A model generated the notes under the pieces. It worked only from the letters and a program-made list of their open reading frames with translations, made no database searches and was not told the DNA's origin. Made by a program: the position numbers and the translations under genes. From positions 1-64,000 of the forward strand of contig NZ_JACTVI010000042.1 in NCBI RefSeq assembly GCF_014495685.1: a stretch of DNA of 64,000 nt, in the 5' to 3' direction. Below are positions 3,314 through 36,259 of the stretch, one piece after another. The stretch's first letter is position 1. Every line of letters begins with the position of its first letter. The DNA comes from Streptomyces sp. TRM68367 (GTDB taxonomy: Bacteria; Actinomycetota; Actinomycetes; Streptomycetales; Streptomycetaceae).

Positions 3314-4753
3314 TCAGCCGCGCGGCGCGCGCTGCGAGCGCAGCGTCGGTCCGTGCAGTGGCTCGGTGGCCCAGCGCGCGGTGAACGTGCGGTCGGGGAG
3401 GGAGCAGGTCACCGTCAGACGGTGCGGTGTCTCCAGGAAGACCACGTCCGCGGTGAAGGTACCGGCGTCGGTCCATCCGCCGCTCACCGCGGTGGGGACG
3501 GGCTCCTCGGTGACCGTCCAGCCGTCCCGGCCGAGCCGCACGTCGAGGGGGTGGTCGTCGTCGGTGAGCGTCAGCCGCGGGCCGTCCGCCGTCACGGTGA
3601 CCGCGACCGCGGTCAGGTCCGGCAGGCCCGCGCAGACGCCGCCGTACGGCGTGAACGCGGCCTCCGACCAGGCCTCGGCCTCCTCCGGCGGGGCGGGCTC
3701 GCCCTGGACCGGCGGCAGCGCGAGCCGGGCGAGGCGCCGGCCAAGAGCCGCGTCCTGCTCCTCGCGGCCGGACAGCGGGCCGGGGCCGAAGGCGGGCAGC
3801 AGATGCGTCCAGACGAGGTCCAGCATCCGCTGCATGTCCGCGGTCGCCGCGGTGGCCGCGATCACGGCGTCCTGTTCGGGCAGCACCACGCAGAACTGGC
3901 CGTAGGCCCCGTCGCCGCGGTAGCCGTGCCGCGACCGCCAGAACTGGAAGCCGTAGCCCTGCTGCCAGTCGGACAGCGCCCCCTCGGGCGTGCCGTCGGC
4001 GTTCGCGGTCTGGGTGCGGGTGGCCTCGGCGACCCACCGCTCGGGCAGCAGCCGCCTGCCCTCCCACACGCCGCCACGCAGGTACAGCTGGCCGAGCCCG
4101 GCGACGGCGTCGGTGGTGGCGTGCAGTCCGCTGAAGCCCAGTTCGCGGCCCGACCGGTCGCGCAGCCAGGCCGCCGGGCCGATGCCGAGCGGTTCGAACA
4201 GCCGGGGCCGCAGGTACTCCGTCAGCGGCTGTCCCGTGACACGCTGGAGGATCGCGGCGAGCGTGTACGTGGTGGGGTTGTTGTAGGCGAAGACGGTGCC
4301 CGGGTCGCGCTCCGGCGGCAGCAGCAGGAAGCCGCGGACGAGTTCGTCGGGGTCGAGGGCGTCGGCCCGGGCCAGGGTCTCCTCCTCGTGCCCGCTGGCC
4401 ATGGACGCCACGTGCCGCACCAGCATCGACCGGCTGCGCGGGTCGGTGATGTCGGCCTCGAACTCCGGGAAGTACGAGATCACCGGGTCGTCGAGACCGA
4501 TCAGCCCCTCGGCGACGGCGAACCCGGCGGCCGTCGCGGTGAAACTCTTGCTGAGCGAGTACAGCAGCTGGGGGCGGTCGGGTGTGTACGGCGCCCACCA
4601 CCCGGAGGCCACGAGGTGACCGTGCCGCAGGATCATCAGGCTGTGCGGCTCGATGTCCGGGTCGGCGTCGACAGCGTCCAGGAAGGCGTGGACGCCGACG
4701 GCGTCGACGCCCTGCGCGGCGGGCGTGGAGACGGGCAGCCGGTGAATGTCCAT
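3314..4753 (-). CDS. Serine hydrolase, class C beta-lactamase / DD-peptidase fold
   Basis: The SxxK motif is Ser66-Leu-Ser-Lys69 (YSLSK) and the second motif is Tyr157-Asn-Asn159 (FAYNNPT), so the penicillin-binding fold is complete enough for an acyl-serine mechanism. The C-terminal ~100 residues form a beta-rich extension seen in EstB/6-aminohexanoate-dimer-hydrolase type members. No signal peptide is evident, which argues for an intracellular esterase or amidase rather than a cell-wall DD-peptidase. Its stop directly abuts the pseudokinase stop (TGATCA at 3311-3316), so the two genes are convergent. The substrate cannot be told from sequence. Confidence 0.82.
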   Translation of the reverse strand: MDIHRLPVSTPAAQGVDAVGVHAFLDAVDADPDIEPHSLMILRHGHLVASGWWAPYTPDRPQLLYSLSKSFTATAAGFAVAEGLIGLDDPVISYFPEFEADITDPRSRSMLVRHVASMASGHEEETLARADALDPDELVRGFLLLPPERDPGTVFAYNNPTTYTLAAILQRVTGQPLTEYLRPRLFEPLGIGPAAWLRDRSGRELGFSGLHATTDAVAGLGQLYLRGGVWEGRRLLPERWVAEATRTQTANADGTPEGALSDWQQGYGFQFWRSRHGYRGDGAYGQFCVVLPEQDAVIAATAATADMQRMLDLVWTHLLPAFGPGPLSGREEQDAALGRRLARLALPPVQGEPAPPEEAEAWSEAAFTPYGGVCAGLPDLTAVAVTVTADGPRLTLTDDDHPLDVRLGRDGWTVTEEPVPTAVSGGWTDAGTFTADVVFLETPHRLTVTCSLPDRTFTARWATEPLHGPTLRSQRAPRG

Positions 4754-4875
4754 GACAGCATTCTCCCTCAGCGGTCAGGCCATGATCCAGAGGCCGGACT
4801 GAGGACCGCGGCTAGCCGCTCCCCGGCCCCGGCGCCGAGCCGTTTTCGGGTGTGTCCGTCGGGGACTCGGGCCTC

Positions 4876-5847
4876 ATGGTGCAGATCGGATACACGATGA
4901 TGACCGAGCAGGCGGGGCCTCGTGAGCTCGTCGAGCACGTCGTGCGGGCCGAGGAGGTGGGGTTCGACTTCTCGGTGACCTCGGACCACTACTTCCCGTG
5001 GCTGCGCGCGCAGGGGCACTCGCCGTACGCGTGGAGCGTGCTGGGCGCGGCGGCGCACGCAACGACGCGCATTCCGCTGATGACGTACGTGACGTGTCCG
5101 ACGATCCGGTACCACCCGGCGGTGGTGGCGCAGAAGGCGGCCACGATGCAGCTGCTGTCCGGAGGACGGTTCCGGTTGGGGCTGGGGTCGGGCGAGAACC
5201 TCAACGAACATGTGGTGGGCGGCGGTTGGCCGCCGGTGGACGTGCGGCACGAGATGCTCCAGGAGGCCGTGGCGATCATCCGCGCGCTCTTCGCCGGCGG
5301 TCACGTCAACCACTGCGGCTCGCACTACGACGTGGAGTCGGCCCGGCTGTGGGACCTGCCCGACGAGCCGCCGCCCATCGGCATCGCCGTGTCCGGCGAA
5401 CGCTCCTGCGCGCTGGCGGGCAAGCTCGCCGACCTGGTCATCGCGACACAGCCCGAACAGGGCCTGCTGGCGGCGTTCGACCGGCACGGCGGCACGGGCA
5501 AGTCGCGCGTGGGCCAGCTGCCGGTCTGCCACGACCCCGACCGGGACACGGCCGTCAAGCGGGCCCACGCGCAGTTCCGCTGGTTCGGCGGCGGCTGGAA
5601 GGTCAACTCCGAGCTGCCGCACCCCGACTCGTTCGAGGCGGCCACGCAGTTCGTCACGCCCGACGACGTCGCCGCCTCGATCCCGTGCGGCGACGATCCG
5701 GAGGACTTCGTCGAGGCGGTACGCCCGTACGCCGAGGCCGGTTTCACCGAGATCGCCCTGGTGCAGATCGGCGGCGAGACACAGCCGGCGTTCCTGGACT
5801 GGTCGCAGAAGACGCTGCTGCCCGCACTGCGCGACGCCTTCGGCTGA
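4876..5847 (+). CDS. LLM-class F420-dependent oxidoreductase
   Basis: A luciferase-like TIM-barrel protein of the coenzyme F420 group. The protein begins MVQIGYTMMTEQ and carries TSDHYFPW near residue 42 and GLGSGENLNEHV near 108, both matching the F420-dependent glucose-6-phosphate-dehydrogenase-like branch (I recall TIGR03557). Redox of an unidentified substrate with F420 in the cytoplasm is expected. ATG 4876 is preferred over the in-frame GTG at 4852 because the family starts here and GGGGA lies 11 nt upstream. It stands alone, divergent from the serine hydrolase. Confidence 0.82.
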   Translation: MVQIGYTMMTEQAGPRELVEHVVRAEEVGFDFSVTSDHYFPWLRAQGHSPYAWSVLGAAAHATTRIPLMTYVTCPTIRYHPAVVAQKAATMQLLSGGRFRLGLGSGENLNEHVVGGGWPPVDVRHEMLQEAVAIIRALFAGGHVNHCGSHYDVESARLWDLPDEPPPIGIAVSGERSCALAGKLADLVIATQPEQGLLAAFDRHGGTGKSRVGQLPVCHDPDRDTAVKRAHAQFRWFGGGWKVNSELPHPDSFEAATQFVTPDDVAASIPCGDDPEDFVEAVRPYAEAGFTEIALVQIGGETQPAFLDWSQKTLLPALRDAFG

Positions 5848-8101: not shown

Positions 8102-8182
8102 AGCGGTGAATTCCCATTCACCCCAGCTCTGTGGGTCGGGTGGACAGGCTCCTCAGCTGTACTGGTCCGGGGTGGCGGGCCG

Positions 8183-9397
8183 CTACTCGCGGGAGGCCAG
8201 CGCCCGTGCGTGCACGGTGCGGGCGAGCCGCGGTCCGAGCCAGCGCTTGAACCGGCGCAGCGCTGCCAGCCGCCCGGCGGCCCGGTCGAGGCGGTGGTAC
8301 AGCCGGGGCGGGATGTGGGGCAGCAGGGGAGAGTGGCGCTGGCCGAGCAGGGCGAACATCTGCTCCGGGGGCAGCCCGATGTAGCGGGGCAGGTTCTCGT
8401 ACCACCGGGCGCTGTAGCGGGCCGCGCTCTGCACGGGCAGCAGGCCCGCGCGGCGCTCCCGCTCGTAGCGGGCGAGGGCCTGCGGCAGGTCGGCGCACTC
8501 ACCCAGGGCCCCGGCGAGGGCGATGGCGTCCTCCAGGGCGAGGGTGGTGCCGGCGCCGATGGAGTAGTGCGTGGTGTGGGCGGCGTCGCCGATCAGGACG
8601 AGGTTGCCGTGGTGCCAGGCGGAGTTGGTGAGGGTGCGGAAGGTCAGCCACGGGGAGCTGCCGTCGGCGACGGTGCGGCCGATGAGGGGGTGGCCGTCCA
8701 GGACGCGGGCGAAGAGTTTCTCCAGGAGGGCGAGTCCGTCTGCCTCGTTCGCCCGGTCGAGGCCGAGACCGGTCCAGGTGTCGGGCGCGCACTCGACGAC
8801 GCAGGTGCTGCGGTCGGCGCCGTAGCCGTATCCGTAGGCCCAGATCCAGCCGTGGTCGGTCTCGACGAAGGAGAAGGTGAAGGCATCGAAGACCTTGCTG
8901 GTGCCGAGCCAGATGTAGCGGTTGCGGCCGGCTGTGAGGCGGGTGCCGAACCGGTCGGCGTGGCGGGTGCGCAGCGCGCTGTGGACGCCGTCGGCCGCCA
9001 CGATCAGGTCGGCGCCGGCGGGCAGGCTGTCGGGCGTGATCTCGTGCTCGAACTCCAGCCGTACGCCGAGCGAGCGGGCGCGGTCGGCGAGGATCTCCAG
9101 CAGCCGGTGGCGGCCGATGCCGAAGCCCTGGTCGCCGTGGTGCCGGGTGGTCTCGTCCCGCACGTGGGCGACCCCGTCGCTCCAGCGCACGGAGTTCTGG
9201 TCGAGGGCGCGGGCCGACTCGGGGTCGTGTTCGTGGAACCGGTCGAGCATGCCGCGCCAATAGGTCACGCCCCAGCCGTAGGTCGAGCCCTCCGGGTTGC
9301 GCTCGTAGACGGTGATGTCGTGGGCGGGGTCCTGCCGCTTCAGCAGGATCGAGAGATACAGGCCGGCGGGCCCGCCACCGACGCAGGCGACCTTCAC
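8183..9397 (-). CDS. FAD-dependent aromatic-type monooxygenase
   Basis: A p-hydroxybenzoate-hydroxylase-fold flavoprotein of 404 residues. The dinucleotide motif VGGGPAGLYLSILLK opens the protein, DLIVAADGVHSALR is the second FAD motif near residue 140, and LIGDAAHTTHYSIGAGTTLA near 285 binds the FAD pyrophosphate. The YGWGVTYW segment near residue 40 and the GAGTTLALEDA ending resemble the flavin module of anthraniloyl-CoA monooxygenase, so an aryl-CoA or aromatic acid substrate is possible. The GTG start at 9397 has GGGG 5 nt upstream. Two palindromes lie in the leader and a wrecked TetR gene lies immediately downstream. Confidence 0.82.
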   Translation of the reverse strand: MKVACVGGGPAGLYLSILLKRQDPAHDITVYERNPEGSTYGWGVTYWRGMLDRFHEHDPESARALDQNSVRWSDGVAHVRDETTRHHGDQGFGIGRHRLLEILADRARSLGVRLEFEHEITPDSLPAGADLIVAADGVHSALRTRHADRFGTRLTAGRNRYIWLGTSKVFDAFTFSFVETDHGWIWAYGYGYGADRSTCVVECAPDTWTGLGLDRANEADGLALLEKLFARVLDGHPLIGRTVADGSSPWLTFRTLTNSAWHHGNLVLIGDAAHTTHYSIGAGTTLALEDAIALAGALGECADLPQALARYERERRAGLLPVQSAARYSARWYENLPRYIGLPPEQMFALLGQRHSPLLPHIPPRLYHRLDRAAGRLAALRRFKRWLGPRLARTVHARALASRE

Positions 9398-11474: not shown

Positions 11475-12497
11475 ATGGCGGACGGGACGATGCGCGCGTG
11501 GTCCGTGGTGCGCCCCGGGCCGGTCGAGGAGGGGTCCCTCCGGTTCGTCGAGAAGCCGGTGCCGGTGCCCGGGGACGACGAGCTGCTGGTGCACATGCGC
11601 ACGTGCGGGGTGTGCCGCACCGATCTGCACGTCGCCGAGGGCGACCTGCCGGTGCACCGGCCGGGCGTGACGCCGGGGCACGAGGTCGTCGGCGTGGTGG
11701 GCGCGCTCGGGGCGTCGGTGCGCGGCTTCGCCGTGGGCGACCGGGTCGGCGTGGCCTGGCTGCGACGCACCGACGGCACCTGCGTGTACTGCCGGCGGGG
11801 CGCCGAGAACCTGTGCCCGTCCTCGCGGTACACCGGCTGGGACGCGGACGGCGGCTACGCGCAGTACACGACCGTCCCCGCGGCCTTCGCCTATCCACTG
11901 CCCGCAAGCCTGGACGACGTGGCGCCGGCGCCGCTGATGTGCGCGGGCATCATCGGCTACCGGGCGCTGAAGCGGGCCGCGCTGCCGCCGGGCGGGCGGC
12001 TCGGGCTGTACGGCTTCGGCGGCAGCGCACATCTGTGCGCGCAGGTGGCGCTGGCCGAGGGCGCCGCCGTGCACGTGATGACGCGCGGGGCAGCTGCGCG
12101 GCGCCTGGCGCTGGACCTGGGCGCGTCCTCGGCCCAGGACGCGTGGGCGACGCCCCCGGAGCCCCTGGACAGCGCGATCCTGTTCGCCCCGGCCGGCGAT
12201 CTGGTACCGGTGGCGCTGCGGGCCCTGGACCGGGGCGGTGTACTGGCGATCGCCGGGATCCACCTCACGGACGTGCCGCCGCTGCACTACGAGTCCGAGT
12301 TGTTCTACGAGAAGGAGCTGCGCAGCGTCACCTCCAACACGCGCGAGGACGGGCGGGAGTTCCTGACGCTCGCCGCCCGGCACGGGGTGCGCGCCACCAC
12401 GCACACGTATCCGCTGTCGCGGGCGGACGAGGCGCTGCGGGACCTGAAGGAGGGGCGCTTCGACGGGGCCGCGGTGCTGGTGAACGACCTCTCCTGA
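11475..12497 (+). CDS. Zinc-dependent alcohol dehydrogenase (MDR family)
   Basis: A medium-chain NAD(P)-dependent dehydrogenase of 340 residues. The catalytic zinc site is CGVCRTDLH and GHEVVG; structural zinc is held by the cysteines of [15 protein letters not shown]. The Rossmann motif is YGFGGSAHL near residue 180. The GGYAQY segment and the [12 protein letters not shown] helix match the AdhA group of alcohol dehydrogenases. ATG 11475 is chosen because GGGGAG lies just upstream and the family begins near here; the open frame reaches back to 11271. It runs directly into a terpene synthase fragment (12502), so its downstream neighbours have been lost. Confidence 0.86.
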
Positions 12498-12501
12498 GCC
12501 C

Positions 12502-12735
12502 CGGCCCGTTCCGCTGGTCGTCTCCGCCAACGAGCGGTGCGGGCTCAAGGCGGCCTATCTGCGGGCCGTCGAGATCCACAACCGGATCATGGCGGCCTTG
12601 GAGGAGTCCGCCGACCTCTCCGCGACCACGCCGCTCGTCGAACGGCACGCCCGGGGGCTCGCCGCCTGGGTGTCCGGCAACCACGAGTGGCACGCCACCA
12701 ACACCCACCGCTACCACCTGCCCGACTACTGGTAA
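12502..12735 (+). pseudogene. C-terminal fragment of a terpene synthase, probably 2-methylisoborneol synthase
   Basis: The frame ending at TAA 12733-12735 reads CGLKAAYLRAVEIHNRIMAA, then ERHARGLAAWVSGNHEWHAT and THRYHLPDYW. This is the last ~75 residues of a bacterial class I terpene cyclase (the region after the NSE motif, with the terminal RY). The DDxxD and NSE metal-binding parts are missing, and no start codon or upstream homology is seen after the dehydrogenase stop at 12497. The next gene is a wrecked GPP C-methyltransferase, the usual operon partner of 2-methylisoborneol synthase; this favours that identity over other cyclases. Confidence 0.7.
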
Positions 12736-12783
12736 GGCGCATGACCCTTGACATCCCCTCAGAAACACCACGAGGAGTCATCG

Positions 12784-13215
12784 TTGACCACCACCGCCGA
12801 CCCCGGCTCCACGACCGCACCGGCGGCCACGCCGCTGCCGCACCAGTCCACGTACCAGGCCCGCGTCGCGGACTACTGGAACGCCGCCGAGCACGCCCGG
12901 CTGCTGCGCCGCGGCGGACGCTACGTGGTGATCACCGGCTGCTACAACGACACCTACGGGCAGGCCTCGCGCGAGGTCTCCCTCATCAACGCCCACTACA
13001 TCTGCGACATCCACCCCCGGTCGGCGTACTTCCGCGCGATGGCCCGGAGCCGCCTCGTCCCGGTCCATGTGCAGAACCTGACCGCGGAAACGATCCCCTA
13101 CCGGGAACTGCGCAAGCGGGCCGACCACCTGGTCACGGGCATCGAGGACACGTTCCTGACCGCCTACAACAACGGCAGCTTCCAGTACCTGCTGATCGCC
13201 GCCGACCGGGCCTGA
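12784..13215 (+). pseudogene. GPP 2-C-methyltransferase with internal deletion
   Basis: Intact geranyl diphosphate C2-methyltransferases, which make 2-methyl-GPP for 2-methylisoborneol, have about 290 residues. This frame has 143. It keeps the N-terminus (YQARVADYWN) and then jumps to the last ~105 residues (GGRYVVITGCYNDTYGQ, LVTGIEDTF, GSFQYLLIAADRA). The central Rossmann core with the SAM-binding glycine motif is absent. The deletion is in frame, so a short protein could still be made, but it cannot bind SAM. TTG 12784 is the likely start, with GAGGAG 6 nt upstream. It follows the cyclase fragment by 48 bp, as in the native operon. Confidence 0.78.
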
Positions 13216-13328
13216 CGCGGCGTCATGCCGTCGGCCGCCGGCGTACCGTGGCCGACGCGTGTCTTCCCCCCCGGCGCCCGGCTGTGCTTGCCTGGGGGCC
13301 GTTTCGGTGGCCGGGCGGGAGTTGCCGT

Positions 13329-14228
13329 ATGCGCAAGCCGTGGGTCGTGGGGGTACTGCTGGCGGGCGTGCTGCTCGGTGCGTGCGGGGATCCGGCGTCC
13401 GGGCCGCAGGAGGCACCGCTACCGCCCGAACCGGGCGCGTCGTCCACCACGCACCAGCGGGCCGCCGCCTCCCCGAGCGCGCCCGCCCGGGCTCCGCGCG
13501 TGCTGTACCTCGGCGACTCGCTCGCGATGGAGAACCAGAAGGTGCTGGGGCAGGAACTGCGCAGCCGGTTGCGCGCGACGTACACGAGCGCCCCGTACTC
13601 CGGGACCACGCTGTGCGACTACCTGGAGGGCACCGGTGAGCGGTCCCTCGTCCCGCCCGCGGACAAGGCAGCCACGCTGGTGCGCAAGCTGCGGCCGGAC
13701 TTCGTGGTGCTGCAGTTCTGGGGCAACGCCTGGGGTTACACGCCGTGCATGGACGGGATCACGTACGACGCCTCGCGCGAGCGGTACCTCGCACGGTACG
13801 CCGCCGACGCGGAGCGGCTCGCCGGGCAGATCTCCGCGGCCGGAGGCGACCGGCGTCCGCGCATCGTGTGGGTGCTGCAGGGTCCGGATCCGATCACCCC
13901 GGAGCGCGTCCGGCGCGTGAACGCGCTGTACGAGGAGCGGGCCGCCGCCTCCGGGGATCTGGTGGCCGACGCCGGGAAGACGGTGAGCCCGGCGTCGGCC
14001 CGCTACACGTGGGCGCGCCACCTGCCGTGCACCGCGTACGAGCGCGCCCATCCCGACTACTGCACCGAACCGGGCCGGGACCGTACGGCCCTGCACCGCG
14101 ACGACGACTACCTGCACTTCTGTCTGGCGCCCACGACGTCCGAGCCGAAGCCCTGCCCGGTCCGCTCCCCCGGCATCCTGCGCATGGCCCGCGAGATCAC
14201 ACGGGTGGTCGGGGACGAGGCCGGCTGA
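13329..14228 (+). CDS. SGNH/GDSL-like hydrolase, predicted lipoprotein
   Basis: A 299-residue protein starting with a lipoprotein signal (MRKPWVVGVLLAGVLLGAC, lipobox Cys19) and a Pro/Ser-rich spacer. The hydrolase block begins RVLYLGDSLAMEN (the GDS serine) and includes VVLQFWGNAW (the Asn block, with N in GN) near residue 125. It would act at the outer face of the membrane as an esterase or acyltransferase-like enzyme. The C-terminal half holds several cysteines (CTAYERAHPDYC, FCLAP) that may form disulfides. It stands alone between two decayed loci and appears intact. The substrate is unknown. Confidence 0.77.
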   Translation: MRKPWVVGVLLAGVLLGACGDPASGPQEAPLPPEPGASSTTHQRAAASPSAPARAPRVLYLGDSLAMENQKVLGQELRSRLRATYTSAPYSGTTLCDYLEGTGERSLVPPADKAATLVRKLRPDFVVLQFWGNAWGYTPCMDGITYDASRERYLARYAADAERLAGQISAAGGDRRPRIVWVLQGPDPITPERVRRVNALYEERAAASGDLVADAGKTVSPASARYTWARHLPCTAYERAHPDYCTEPGRDRTALHRDDDYLHFCLAPTTSEPKPCPVRSPGILRMAREITRVVGDEAG

Positions 14229-14283
14229 GCCCGGCCGGCAAAACCGTTCGACAGGACCCCGGCCGGCCGCTGGGATGGGCGGC

Positions 14284-14854
14284 ATGTGTGCCGTGAAGAT
14301 GCATGACGACGAGTTGGACATCGACGCCTCGCTCGTCGGCCGGCTGATCGCCGGACAGTTCCCGCAGTGGGCGGGGCTGCCCGTGCGGCGTGTGGAGTCC
14401 TCCGGGACCGAGAACGCCATGTTCCGCCTCGGCACGGACCTGGTGGTGCGATCGCGCAGCTGGTGGGGCGGATCGACACCCGTGCGATGACGGCGCTGTG
14501 GGAGGAGGCCCTGCGGGCTCCGGCGTACGCCGGGCCGCCCGTGTGGGCGCACGGCGATCTCATGCCGGGGAATCTCCTGGTCGGCAGCGGACGACTGGCC
14601 GCCGTGATCGATTTCGGCACCGTGGGCGTGGGCGATCCCGCCGTCGATCTGATCGTCACCTGGAATCTGCTGCCCGCACAGGCGCGGGGCGTCTTCCGCG
14701 AGGGTGTGGGGCCGATGACGCCGAGTGGGCGCGCGGCCGGGGCTGGGCGCTGTCGATCTCGCTGATCCAGCTGCCGTACTACTGGGACACGAATCAGGCG
14801 CTCGCGGCGAACTCACGGCATGTGATCCGGGAGATCCTGGCCGAATCCGCGTAG
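14284..14854 (+). pseudogene. Aminoglycoside-phosphotransferase-family gene, deleted and frameshifted
   Basis: Three frames together spell an APH-type small-molecule kinase. Frame one has LVGRLIAGQFPQWAGLPVRR to MFRLGTDLVVR. The middle ~100 residues are deleted at about 14447. Frame two resumes with QLVGRIDTRAMTALWEEALR and the catalytic WAHGDLMPGNLL and VIDFGTVGVGDPA. A second one-base shift near 14710 leads to DDAEWARGRGWALSISLIQL and the normal C-terminus. The ATP-binding lobe is mostly gone, so no kinase can be made. The Ala/Trp-rich tail matches the common Streptomyces group annotated as aminoglycoside phosphotransferase. Confidence 0.78.
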
Positions 14855-15519: not shown

Positions 15520-15783
15520 ATGACGACCTCATCGCCCGGACCCGACGGCATCCGGCCCTTCCGGATCGACGTCCCGCAGCGCGACCTCGACGATCTCCAC
15601 GACCGCCTCGACCGCACCCGCTGGCCGGAGAGCTGCCCGGCCCGCGAGCTGGGCCGCACCCACCCCGACCGGCTGATCGGCGTGCACCTCAATCTGCTGC
15701 CGGGCGCGCAGGCAGCCCATGAGCCGATGCCCGAGGAACTGGACGCGCTCGGCCCCGAGGAGCGAGAGCGCACGCTCGCCTCG
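15520..15783 (+). pseudogene. Epoxide hydrolase N-terminal fragment with internal deletion
   Basis: The frame begins like an actinobacterial epoxide hydrolase: IRPFRIDVPQRDLDDLHDRL then DRTRWPE. It then jumps to LGRTHPDRLIGVHLNLLPGA, a segment that in intact enzymes lies just beyond the catalytic Asp nucleophile, roughly 130 residues later. It is cut again after PEELDALGPEERERTLAS. The nucleophile, lid and His are all missing. The frame has no stop before the clpP gene downstream and is in phase with it, so a 406-residue fusion reading frame exists from 15520 to 16740. The strong RBS at 16073 argues that clpP starts independently. Confidence 0.7.
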
Positions 15784-16083
15784 TGGCGCCGCTGCGCATG
15801 TCCGCCGGGAGGTTCGCGGGCTCGCCGCCCGCGGGCCGGGAGGCGCGGAGATCCGGGCGGCGATCTCCGCCGCCCGCTGCTCGCCCCTGCGCGACCCGCG
15901 GCCGGCCCGCACCTGAAAGTCATCGCTCGGCTCCCTCTGCCCACAGCGAATCTGCTGCGGGCCTGGAAATCCCCGGCGGGCCCGGTGTCCGGCCGAGAGT
16001 GGAGTACGCGGCGACGCCCGCCGCGTGACGACAAGCGAGTGCAGGCGACTGCACGCGACAACGAGCGACGACTAGGAGCGCCG
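15784..16083 (+). promoter_or_regulatory. Upstream region of the clpP pair
   Basis: About 300 bp lie between the epoxide hydrolase remnant and clpP. The first half (15784-15910) is unrecognised GC-rich DNA with open frames but no homology I can name. The second half carries the palindrome GTGCAGGCGACTGCAC at 16039-16054 (6-bp arms, 4-bp centre), 30 bp before the start codon. Direct echoes of GCGA(C/G) occur at 16035-16070 (AAGCGAG, GCGACT, GCGACA, GCGACG). A ClgR/PopR-type activator, encoded just downstream at 17361-17810, is the likely user. Confidence 0.45.
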
Positions 16084-22971: not shown

Positions 22972-22996
22972 GCGGGCTGCCGGCAGGCCAGGACAG

Positions 22997-23407
22997 TCAG
23001 GCGACGGGGACGCCCAGCGACGGGATGGTGCGCTGCATGCGCAGAGCGTCGACGGACTCGGCGAGGAGTTCGTACTCGGTGGTGTCGTCGCTGGTGGCGA
23101 TGCGCACCAGGCGTCCGGCGGCCAGTTCGTCGGCGACCAGTTCCTGCTCGGCCGGGTCGCCGCACCAGGCGCGCAGGACGGCGGGCACGTCGGGTACGGT
23201 GTCGCCGACGGCGACGAGCGCGTTCGGCGGTATGTGCTCGGCGTCGGGCTGCGGATCTAATCGCTGGGCGATCCAGGAGGCCCGGTCCCGAAGCCACCAC
23301 AGGGCGAGCGCCAGGGTCGGGGCCCGGTAGGTGCCCAGAGGTACGCCGATGCGCCGGCCGTCGCAGACGCCGTACGCGGTGACATGGCACAGAAACTCGT
23401 CGTGCAC
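22997..23407 (-). CDS. Conserved hypothetical protein
   Basis: A 136-residue soluble protein beginning MHDEFLCHVTAYGVCDGRRI. It has a YRAPTLALALWWLRDRASW segment near residue 27 and an acidic helical middle (EQELVADELAAGRLV). No signal peptide, membrane helix or catalytic motif is seen. I do not recognise the family with certainty. It is convergent with the streptophobe gene (25-bp gap) and has a 343-bp gene-free region upstream. Confidence 0.6.
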   Translation of the reverse strand: MHDEFLCHVTAYGVCDGRRIGVPLGTYRAPTLALALWWLRDRASWIAQRLDPQPDAEHIPPNALVAVGDTVPDVPAVLRAWCGDPAEQELVADELAAGRLVRIATSDDTTEYELLAESVDALRMQRTIPSLGVPVA

Positions 23408-29946: not shown

Positions 29947-31620
29947 TTACACCGCCAGCCAGACGGCCTGGTCCGGGGGCAGCAGTCCGTTCTCGACGGG
30001 GCCGCTCGCCAGGAGGACCGAGGTGTGGTCGGGCAGGCGGTACGGCTCGGTGGAGAGGTTGATCGCGCAGAGGAAGCCGGGGCTGCGGGTGAGGGCGAGG
30101 ACGCCGTCGGGGGTGTCCAGCCAGGTCATGGTGCCGTCACCGAGTGCGGGATGCTCGCCGCGCAGGCGCAGGGCGGTGCGGTAGAGCTCCAGCATCGAGG
30201 CCGCGTCGCCCGTCTGGGCGGCCACGCTGAGGTCGGCCCAGGTCGCGGGCTGCGGGAGCCACGGGGTGGCATCGGCGTCGTCGGGGCTGAAGCCGTACGG
30301 TGCGGTCGGGCCGGACCACGGGATCGGGACGCGGCAGCCGTCACGGCCGCGGTCGGTGTGCCCGGAGCGTTCCCAGACGGGGTCCTGGAGGATGTCCTCG
30401 GGCAGGTCCTCGACCTCGGGCAGGCCGAGTTCCTCGCCCTGGTAGATGTACGTCCCGCCGGGCAGGGCGAGCATCAGGAGGGCGGCGGCGCGGGCGCGCC
30501 GGGCGCCCAGGTCGCGGTCGAGGGGGCCTTCGGGCGCATACGGCTCGCCCGCGACCCAGCGCCGGACGGTCCGGCGGCCGTAGCGGCTGGCGTGGCGCAT
30601 CACGTCGTGGTTGGAGAGCACCCAGGTGGCCGGTGCGCCCACCGCGCCGAGCATGGCGAGCGAGTCGTCGATCACCGAGCGCAGGTCCTTGGCGTCCCAG
30701 CCGCACATGAGGAAGTCGAAGTTGAACGCGGTGTGCAGGCCGTCCGCGCGGACGTAGGCGGCCAGCCGCTCGGGGGTGTCCGCCCAGGCCTCGGCGACGA
30801 AGGAGCGGTCGCCGTCGAACTCGTCGGCCACGCGGCGCCAGGCGCGGTAGATCTCGTGCACCTCGTCGCGGTCCCAGTGCGGGTGGTCGACGTGCTGGCG
30901 GATCCGCTCCTGCGCGTCGTCCCGGCGGGAGAGCGGTCCCAGTGTCGCCGGCTCCGGGCGCGGTGGCAGGTCGGGGAGTTCCGGTTGCTTGATCAGTCCG
31001 TGGGCGACGTCGATGCGGAAGCCGTCCACACCGCGGCTGAACCAGAACCGCAGGATGTCCTCGAACTCCTCCCGCACTTCGGGGTGTTGCCAGTTCAGGT
31101 CGGGCTGCTGCGGGGCGAACAGGTGGAGGTACCACTCGCCGTCGGGCAGCCGTGTCCAGGCCGGGCCGCCGAAGCAGGAGACCCAGTCGTTGGGCGGCTC
31201 GGCGCCGTCGGGCCCCCGGCCGGGGCGGAAGACGTACCGCTTCCGCTCGGGACTGCCCGGCCCAGCCGCCAACGCCTCCTGGAACCAGGCGTGTTGGTCG
31301 GAGGTGTGGTTGGGCACGATGTCGGGGATGACGCGGATTCCGTGCCGGTGCGCCTCCTCGATGAGGTGTTCCGCGTCGGCCAGGGTGCCGAACAGGGGGT
31401 CGATGTCGCGGTAGTCGGCCACGTCGTAACCGTGGTCGGCCATCGGCGACTTGTACCAGGGGTTGATCCAGATGGCGTCGACGCCGAGCGCCTTCAGATA
31501 CGGCAGGCGGGAGCGGATGCCGGCGATGTCACCGACGCCGTCGCCGTTTGCGTCGGCGAAACTGCGTATGTAGACCTGGTAGATGACGGCACTGCGCCAC
31601 CAAGGTGCTGTTTCGGGCAT
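29947..31620 (-). CDS. GH13 alpha-glucosidase (AglA-like)
   Basis: A 557-residue cytoplasmic glycoside hydrolase of family 13. The nucleophile is Asp204 (GFRIDVAHG), the acid/base is Glu277 (FVAEAWAD) and the transition-state Asp is 339 (LSNHDVMRH). Conserved region I is DIVPNHTSDQH at 100. The loop VGDIAGIRSRLPYL and the QPDLNWQHPEVR segment are typical of oligo-1,6/alpha-glucosidases. No signal peptide is present, so it should hydrolyse sugars brought in by the adjacent ABC importer. The gap to the upstream permease gene is 61 bp. ATG 31620 matches the family; AGGAG lies 12 nt upstream. Confidence 0.9.
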   Translation of the reverse strand: MPETAPWWRSAVIYQVYIRSFADANGDGVGDIAGIRSRLPYLKALGVDAIWINPWYKSPMADHGYDVADYRDIDPLFGTLADAEHLIEEAHRHGIRVIPDIVPNHTSDQHAWFQEALAAGPGSPERKRYVFRPGRGPDGAEPPNDWVSCFGGPAWTRLPDGEWYLHLFAPQQPDLNWQHPEVREEFEDILRFWFSRGVDGFRIDVAHGLIKQPELPDLPPRPEPATLGPLSRRDDAQERIRQHVDHPHWDRDEVHEIYRAWRRVADEFDGDRSFVAEAWADTPERLAAYVRADGLHTAFNFDFLMCGWDAKDLRSVIDDSLAMLGAVGAPATWVLSNHDVMRHASRYGRRTVRRWVAGEPYAPEGPLDRDLGARRARAAALLMLALPGGTYIYQGEELGLPEVEDLPEDILQDPVWERSGHTDRGRDGCRVPIPWSGPTAPYGFSPDDADATPWLPQPATWADLSVAAQTGDAASMLELYRTALRLRGEHPALGDGTMTWLDTPDGVLALTRSPGFLCAINLSTEPYRLPDHTSVLLASGPVENGLLPPDQAVWLAV

Positions 31621-35172: not shown

Positions 35173-35601
35173 TCAGCGAGTGCCCGGCACGGGCGAGTTG
35201 GCCGGCACCGGCGGCTCCTCCAGCGTCGTCGCCAGCCGGTCCAGCAGGCCGCGCAGCAGGTCGGTGTCGTCGTCGGAGAGCGCCGGCCAGTCGGCGCGGA
35301 CCGCGCGGTCGATGCTCCGCCAGTACTCCTGGCCGCGCGGGGTGAGGTGGGCGAGGATGCGCCGCCGGTCGAGCGGATCGACCCGGCGGTGCACGAGGTT
35401 TCGGTCGACGAGGTGGTCGGCGAGCTTGGTCAGCGTCGGCGGCGGCAGGAAGGCCGCCTCGGCGACCGCCGTCATGCGGTGCCCCTCGCCGTCGGAGAGC
35501 AGGGCGAGCACCCGCCACACCTCCAGCGAGCAGCCGTGCGCCTTCAGGACGGCCTCGAGCCGGCGCGCGGCCAGCCGCTCGGCCCGGGTCAGGAGCTGCA
35601 T
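35173..35601 (-). CDS. MarR-family regulator, possibly N-terminally truncated
   Basis: The protein reads MQLLTRAERLAARRLEAVLK, EVWRVLALLSDGEGHRMTAV, the recognition region FLPPPTLTKLADHLVDRNLV and the wing HRRVDPLDRRRILAHLTPRG. From ATG 35601 it has 142 residues, within the family range, but homologues as I know them start 10-20 residues earlier. Coding continues as YECAAL just upstream before being cut at about 35640 by the junction with a transporter fragment on the other strand. The DNA-binding core is intact. Its promoter is likely lost, so activity is doubtful. Confidence 0.7.
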   Translation of the reverse strand: MQLLTRAERLAARRLEAVLKAHGCSLEVWRVLALLSDGEGHRMTAVAEAAFLPPPTLTKLADHLVDRNLVHRRVDPLDRRRILAHLTPRGQEYWRSIDRAVRADWPALSDDDTDLLRGLLDRLATTLEEPPVPANSPVPGTR

Positions 35602-35645
35602 CAGGGCGGCGCACTCGTATGCGCGGGAGTCCGGCGGGCGCGTCG

Positions 35646-36259
35646 CCGGTGAGGCGTATCTGCCGCTCGGCACCCATGACTTCGCGCCGGTACTGCGCCG
35701 GATCGAGCGCTCGGACGCGGACGCCGTGCTGCTGCCGGCGGGCAGCGACGCGGTGCGGTTCAACCGGGCGTTCGCCGCGTACGGGCTGCACGAGCGGTGT
35801 CTGCGGCTGAGCACGCTGATGGACGGGAACATGCTGATGGCGAGCGGACCGGCGGCCACCGAAGACCTGTACAGCACGGCCGGGTTCTTCGCCTCGCTCG
35901 CCAACCGCGACACCCTCGACTTCCACGGGCGGTACGCTTCCCGGTACAGCGTCGAGGCCCCGGCCCTCGGCAACTTCGGCGAATCCTGCTACGAGGGCGT
36001 GCTGCTGCTCCCCGCCCTCATCGGCCGGGCCGGGACGCTGGACGTGGCGGCGATCGGGTCGGCGGCCGACACCGTGTCGTACGAGGGTCCGCGCGGGCTG
36101 CTGCATCTGCGCGGCAGCCATGTGCGGCAGCGGATCTATCCGGCGCGCGCGGCCGGCCTCGACTTCGACGTGGGCACGGAACTGACGCTCCTGCGGAAAG
36201 CACGTAGGGCGATGACGAACTCAGCCGCCGAATCCACGGATCGGTTCGCCAACGGGTGA
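35646..36259 (+). pseudogene. C-terminal fragment of an ABC transporter substrate-binding protein
   Basis: The plus-strand frame gives GEAYLPLGTHDFAPVLRRIE, SDADAVLLPAGSDAVRFNRA, EDLYSTAGFFASLANRDTLD and GESCYEGVLLLPALIGRAG. This is the second half of an amide/urea-type periplasmic binding protein (Peripla_BP_6). The signal peptide and first lobe are missing, and the frame runs upstream only through the antisense of the MarR gene. Such genes normally lie divergent from a MarR- or GntR-type regulator. Here a deletion at ~35640 has removed both 5' ends together with the shared promoter. No start site remains. Confidence 0.72.

Follow-up and report, generated by a model that had tools for sequence, protein, structure and literature searches.

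Between an alcohol dehydrogenase gene and a lipoprotein-like gene of Streptomyces sp. TRM68367, the end of a terpene cyclase gene is directly followed by a short methyltransferase reading frame, which raises the question of what once stood at this locus, how it was lost and whether anything left there still works. An earlier note on this DNA, made from the letters of the window (the whole 64,000-nucleotide stretch that was analysed), proposed the recent relic of a 2-methylisoborneol (2-MIB) operon. Our comparison with relatives supports a non-functional remnant of a C11-terpenoid operon, a reading to which we assign a probability of roughly 0.88. The alignments show two separate gaps, which would have removed the upstream region, an encapsulin shell gene, the greater part of the cyclase and the middle of the methyltransferase, where its glycine motif lies (Table 1).

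Table 1 Positions of the relic pieces, the deletion joints and the bordering genes in the window.
Feature	Positions	Strand	Remarks
Alcohol dehydrogenase, intact	11475..12497	+	Borders the relic; marks the left edge of the locus in relatives
Deletion 1 joint	12498..12511		Gone: upstream intergenic region, the encapsulin shell gene as a whole, cyclase codons 1 to ~275
Terpene cyclase tail, 2-MIB-synthase-type, last ~75 codons	12511..12735	+	Family and structure matches
GPP 2-C-methyltransferase (GPPMT) stub, 143 codons, TTG start	12784..13215	+	N-terminus and last ~108 codons joined
Deletion 2 joint	12880..12894		459 bp (153 codons) gone, in frame
Lipoprotein-like gene after the relic	13329..14228	+	In some relatives, the right edge of the locus

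Family matches, together with the alignment to the locus of S. viridochromogenes DSM 40736 (L105), confirm that a cyclase tail is followed by an in-frame join of the two ends of a GPPMT. The tail matches the profile of family 2 encapsulin cargo terpene cyclases, NF041167, at positions 297–366 of 366 (E = 4e-19), and its 69.1 bits, below the 400-bit cut-off, mark it as a fragment only; it also matches the structure PDB 4zq8 (E = 2.9e-30) and the 2-MIB synthase structures 3v1v/3v1x (E of about 1e-19). The GPPMT stub matches the equivalog NF041943 at positions 165–271 of 272 (E = 2.5e-52), and with 178.4 bits, under the curated cut-off of 400, likewise counts as a fragment of its family; its N-terminus weakly resembles 4f84 and 3vc1. 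GAGGAG lies upstream of its TTG, a start common to many intact GPPMT homologues when the first start codon is taken. The stub had been described as still translatable, which holds for the GPPMT piece, the only sizeable translatable frame of the two scraps, but not for the cyclase tail, in whose frame the list of open reading frames has no entry of at least 60 residues with an ATG, GTG or TTG start. On the left, the dehydrogenase is 83% identical to the gene of relative G063 over residues 1–340, and its homologue in G009 matches Pfam ADH_N; on the right, the lipoprotein-like gene presumably encodes an SGNH-like product.

A DNA search of 150 relatives, with stretches compared from 20 of them, recovered the same flanks around two blocks that are missing from the window. 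The first block in G063 (L047) carries a 476-residue shell of encapsulin family 2B (NF041163, 704 bits) and the larger part of a 349-residue cyclase (NF041167, 416 bits), and an intact GPPMT from S. cyaneochromogenes (L139) scores 461 bits to NF041943, the cut-off being 400 bits for each of the three profiles. Shell, cyclase and GPPMT occur together in all 13 stretches L047–L059 (the shell match is split in L057), with the dehydrogenase in the same stretch in 8 of the 13; in seven further stretches (L060–L066) the dehydrogenase is present while shell, cyclase and GPPMT all go unmatched. The DNA alignment continues from the stub into the lipoprotein-like gene in L047–L051 (G063, G049, G001, G007 and G067). 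From these stretches and their flanks, the ancestral order here reads alcohol dehydrogenase, shell, cyclase and GPPMT, with the lipoprotein-like gene next in some genomes, and such intact syntenic operons bear out the proposed relic of a cyclase and GPPMT operon. Across 80 named loci, the best 80 of 239, all three genes are full length in 65 (a single match covering 85% or more of the reference, free of stops), 10 lack a shell match but have cyclase and GPPMT at full length (one of them, L138, at a contig end), and 5 show lesions or split matches (L143, L149, L153, L165 and L177). The encapsulin shell is thus not universal in this kind of operon; the window itself has no shell match.

The first gap runs from just past the stop codon of the dehydrogenase to around cyclase codon 275. 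Its site spans 2467–2700 bp in G063, G067, G049 and G007 against 7–11 bp in the window, and 3331 bp in S. viridochromogenes against 22 bp, giving a deletion of about 2.5–3.3 kb. The second gap amounts to a net loss of 459 bp against S. viridochromogenes and also against each of G063, G067, G049 and G007. Its joint reads AACGCCGCCGAGCAC; by eye about 2 bp are strictly shared, and CGCCGAG lies near both ends in several relatives, although S. viridochromogenes has a different base in the left-hand copy. A ten-base repeat suggested here by overlapping BLAST ends was dropped, the joint sharing only about 2–7 bp. Mapping the junctions against relatives thus returned two gaps, as the earlier note expected, but the first is more than a truncation of the cyclase, since a shell gene and intergenic region went with it.

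Both catalytic centres fall in the deleted parts, as had been supposed. The GPPMT motif DAGCGRGG (seen in L139 and in 4f84/3vc1), which we take to be the SAM-binding glycine motif, lies within the 153 codons gone from the window. In intact relatives the CYC-containing Asp-rich motif and the NDLYSFTKE (NSE) motif, both presumably metal-binding, are upstream of the retained cyclase tail. By this alignment, deletion 2 would have taken the glycine motif and deletion 1 both metal-binding motifs.

A profile search of the strain's own genome found no second GPPMT or cyclase of the same type: the next best scores are 41.9 bits for NF041943 and 49.6 bits for NF041167, against cut-offs of 400. A full-length family 2B encapsulin shell (779 bits) does occur on contig 113 of this genome (G000), at 4170–5519 (L208/L215). 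We considered a link to the relic and dropped it: the shell is 59% identical to that of L047, and the four neighbouring frames scanned, one overlapping frame left aside, are DUF4158, amidase, PLP-enzyme and Na/H-exchanger frames with no match to the cyclase family, so it looks like part of another system.

Which pathway the intact operon served depends on the cyclase clade. The S. coelicolor 2-MIB genes (PDB 3v1v/3v1x and 3vc1), of which we take SCO7700 to be the cyclase and SCO7701 the GPPMT, are homologous to both pieces in the window. A tree built from 36 of the 112 collected cyclases has three groups, each on one side of a branch: 17 4zq8-like rows (100/99), 9 SCO7700-like rows (100/99) and 10 others (100/98), the last carrying a long-branch warning. 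The intact relatives form a clade with 4zq8, apart from the SCO7700-like clade. The window tail, placed by identity outside the tree, is 65–83% identical to 4zq8-like sequences, 51–55% to SCO7700-like ones and 33–54% to the third group, so SCO7700/SCO7701, named earlier as the reference pair, is not the closest one. The idea of a cyclase and GPPMT operon of the 2-MIB type stands, yet the cyclase tail aligns better to another cyclase/methyltransferase pair, that of the 4zq8-like clade, which is in part the outcome the note had itself set against its reading.

The two systems differ in other ways. Against eight SCO7700-like genes, the intact L047 cyclase is 51–54% identical and the L139 GPPMT 58–61%. 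Most intact relatives have a DSCYCEEDEG-like motif in place of DDCYCEDHGG, with DDCYCEDRGGS in 2 of the 80 loci (best 80 of 239), and GPTG is found in none of the 20 clade-A cyclase rows printed compared with four of eight SCO7700-like rows. The window shares its clade (by identity), chromosomal address and flanks with 4zq8-like operons that contain a 2B shell and a GPPMT, such as L105 and L139; those loci are full length, whereas the window lacks the shell and both catalytic centres. Loci L185–L190, L192–L194 and L202 hold a third GPPMT-linked cyclase group, mostly with an NDLYSM-type motif and without a CYC motif, adjoining the highest-scoring GPPMTs.

Published work bears on these clades. 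Two points favour the 2-MIB label: a genus survey treats three Streptomyces clades together as ‘2-MIB synthases’ (PMC6604706), and short-form homologues of 2-MIB synthase, which lack the long N-terminal domain, are recognized (PMC10520479). Elsewhere, C-methyltransferases adjoin 2-MIBS-like cyclases in 2B encapsulin operons (PMC8346489); and 2-methylenebornane synthases use the same substrate as 2-MIB synthases (PMC5908152). Our literature search found no product assay of the 4zq8-like cyclase clade, and we therefore infer the product from sequence: 2-MIB is likely for the intact operon, and the pathway label of the relic should read 2-MIB-type C11 terpenoid, with a predicted product.

Is decay of this operon exceptional? 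A survey of 392 Streptomyces genomes (E ≤ 1e-25, tallied by each genome's best copy) gave a GPPMT match in 229, of which 226 pass the cut-off. Because the other two below it are divergent and nearly full length (G349 spans profile positions 6–269 and G436 5–270), the genome of the window has, by best copy, the only truncated GPPMT of the 229. Three low scorers, G349, G436 and G429, were examined as candidate truncations and are not truncated like the window's copy. Genome G205 has five GPPMT matches among the matches listed.

Outside this tally, at least four other Streptomyces carry lesions of their own in the same kind of operon, and seven of the stretches compared lack it at the site. S. 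olindensis DAUFPE 5622 (L143) retains cyclase residues 63–196 beside GPPMT residues 179–293; G062 (L211) has shell pieces and two GPPMT pieces; S. olivaceus NRRL B-3009 (L165) has a stop codon in GPPMT; and Streptomyces sp. NBC_01446 (L149) keeps a 39-codon cyclase tail with a full-length GPPMT, an existing intermediate of the expected kind. The view that a stub left in frame is an unusual kind of decay finds no support here: other broken copies exist, and one deletion length in three is in frame, which makes such a stub unremarkable. Neither the deleted shell gene nor the repeated loss of the locus had been noticed in the earlier note.

We placed these states on a tree of the flanks, reduced from 49 to 44 rows by removing five identical flank sequences (36 with the locus, 8 without it or with a relic; S. 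olindensis left out). The window groups (99/92) with S. viridochromogenes, where the operon is full length, and with G009 and G026, where it is absent, so that the operon is found present, half-erased and gone side by side. Presence and absence change seven times, at least five of them forced by supported branches; the seven absent rows were hand-picked for lacking the locus, and the tree speaks to recurrence of the changes, not to their frequency. The states are no more clustered than shuffled labels (7 changes against a shuffled mean of 7.5). Gain by transfer may have occurred in other species; a possible route is the 1.07-Mb plasmid SNP1 of S. nigrescens HEK616, which carries a full-length operon of the 4zq8-like type (L151). 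A bolder idea, that this encapsulin/C11-terpenoid operon is recurrently lost at one address through different deletions in related species, with loss of the volatile or of the shell repeatedly favoured and the window a snapshot of the process, seems doubtful to us.

The surviving scraps give an indication of age. Median pairwise dN/dS involving the window is 0.18 at the GPPMT end (0.13 over 250 pairs of other sequences), 0.34 in the cyclase tail (0.30 among others) and 0.65 in the 20 N-terminal GPPMT codons (0.27 among others), with controls of 0.24 for the dehydrogenase (others 0.22) and 0.29 for the lipoprotein-like gene (others 0.32). At columns at least 95% conserved, the window departs twice at the GPPMT end (third of 81 rows), once from Trp to Arg and once from Asp to Asn, and four times in the cyclase tail (first of 79 rows). 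Relaxed constraint since the split from S. viridochromogenes did not reach statistical support: nonsynonymous-to-synonymous counts are 6:11 versus 1:16 at the GPPMT end (Fisher p = 0.085), 9:10 versus 6:5 in the cyclase tail (p = 1.0) and 15:21 versus 7:21 pooled (p = 0.19). The scraps appear constrained to much the same degree as intact genes, so constraint probably persisted over most of the branch, and the operon was most likely lost fairly recently, in line with the age first suggested. Constraint this close to that of intact genes also weighs against reading the pieces as a non-functional remnant.

An assembly fault would leave a similar picture if the missing DNA is in the cell and was dropped where pieces were merged in the draft, which comprises 284 contigs. 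Over five pairwise comparisons, in which the same site is counted in several pairs, the window has 30 clean deletions against 11 in reverse: 7, 8, 7 and 5 relative to G067, G049, G007 and G009 (41–47 kb aligned) and 3 relative to G063 (16 kb), with 3, 2, 2, 3 and 1 in the reverse direction for G067, G049, G007, G009 and G063. A 20-kb stretch of contig C219 also has many small gaps in its first half relative to three relatives. However, G009, a single-contig genome, has 7, 5, 5 and 4 clean deletions against G067, G049, G007 and G063 (21–49 kb; 21 in total), with 2, 5, 4 and 2 in reverse (13), so a finished genome can yield counts of this size. Among the other relatives, which are closer to one another, the counts are 0–6, and of the six the window is the richest in deletions. 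The excess could be explained by an assembly fault or by a decaying region. Over a 20-kb stretch from rpoB the alignment falls into long blocks, though some 14–23 kb are absent as one block, and the few bases shared at the deletion 2 joint would make a short assembler overlap. Since there is almost no shared sequence at the joints, and the same operon carries different lesions in other genomes, some of them drafts too, real deletions are much more likely, and we regard a fault of assembly as improbable. We give still less credence, very little indeed, to the GPPMT stub having been kept as a working small protein, such as a regulator or an inactive partner. Its frame is open across the join, with a start codon and an upstream GAGGAG, and its sequence is nearly undamaged, but it is the sole truncated best copy among the 229 carriers, the operon region upstream of it is gone, it departs at the two conserved columns described above (the Asp to Asn change being common to L138), and a scan for one promoter type found no promoter-like site in 12300–13450.

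Other genes of the window are also damaged. An APH-family phosphotransferase gene (Pfam of the G009 homologue) at 14275–14854 lacks about 320 bp at 14448–14450 relative to G009, and an epoxide-hydrolase-like gene at 15520–15798 (EHN domain in G063) lacks about 450 bp at 15640 and has lost its end. Compared with G009, three more genes are truncated: a protein with a cholesterol-oxidase substrate-binding domain keeps its last 40 residues of 377 (8175–8294), an FHA/ABC protein its first 130 of 675 (22996–23385), and a further gene is about 200 codons short (35347–36190). Elsewhere in the genome, the block absent beside the rpoB region, which is present in G067, G009 and G007, maps to contig C245 near 30771–30979 (L088 10771–10979).

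If the locus is the remnant of a C11-terpenoid operon, the intact genes would have methylated GPP to 2-methyl-GPP and cyclized this to 2-MIB or a close C11 relative, with the cyclase possibly housed inside the encapsulin shell. Both gaps could have arisen by ordinary illegitimate joining. Deletion 1, had it come first, would have left the GPPMT without the operon promoter and its partner, making deletion 2 neutral. The strain would no longer make the C11 compound. The relic would then be one more pseudogenized secondary-metabolite operon, an instance of ordinary decay under a corrected label: the operon that was lost had an encapsulin shell and a cyclase from a clade other than that of SCO7700.
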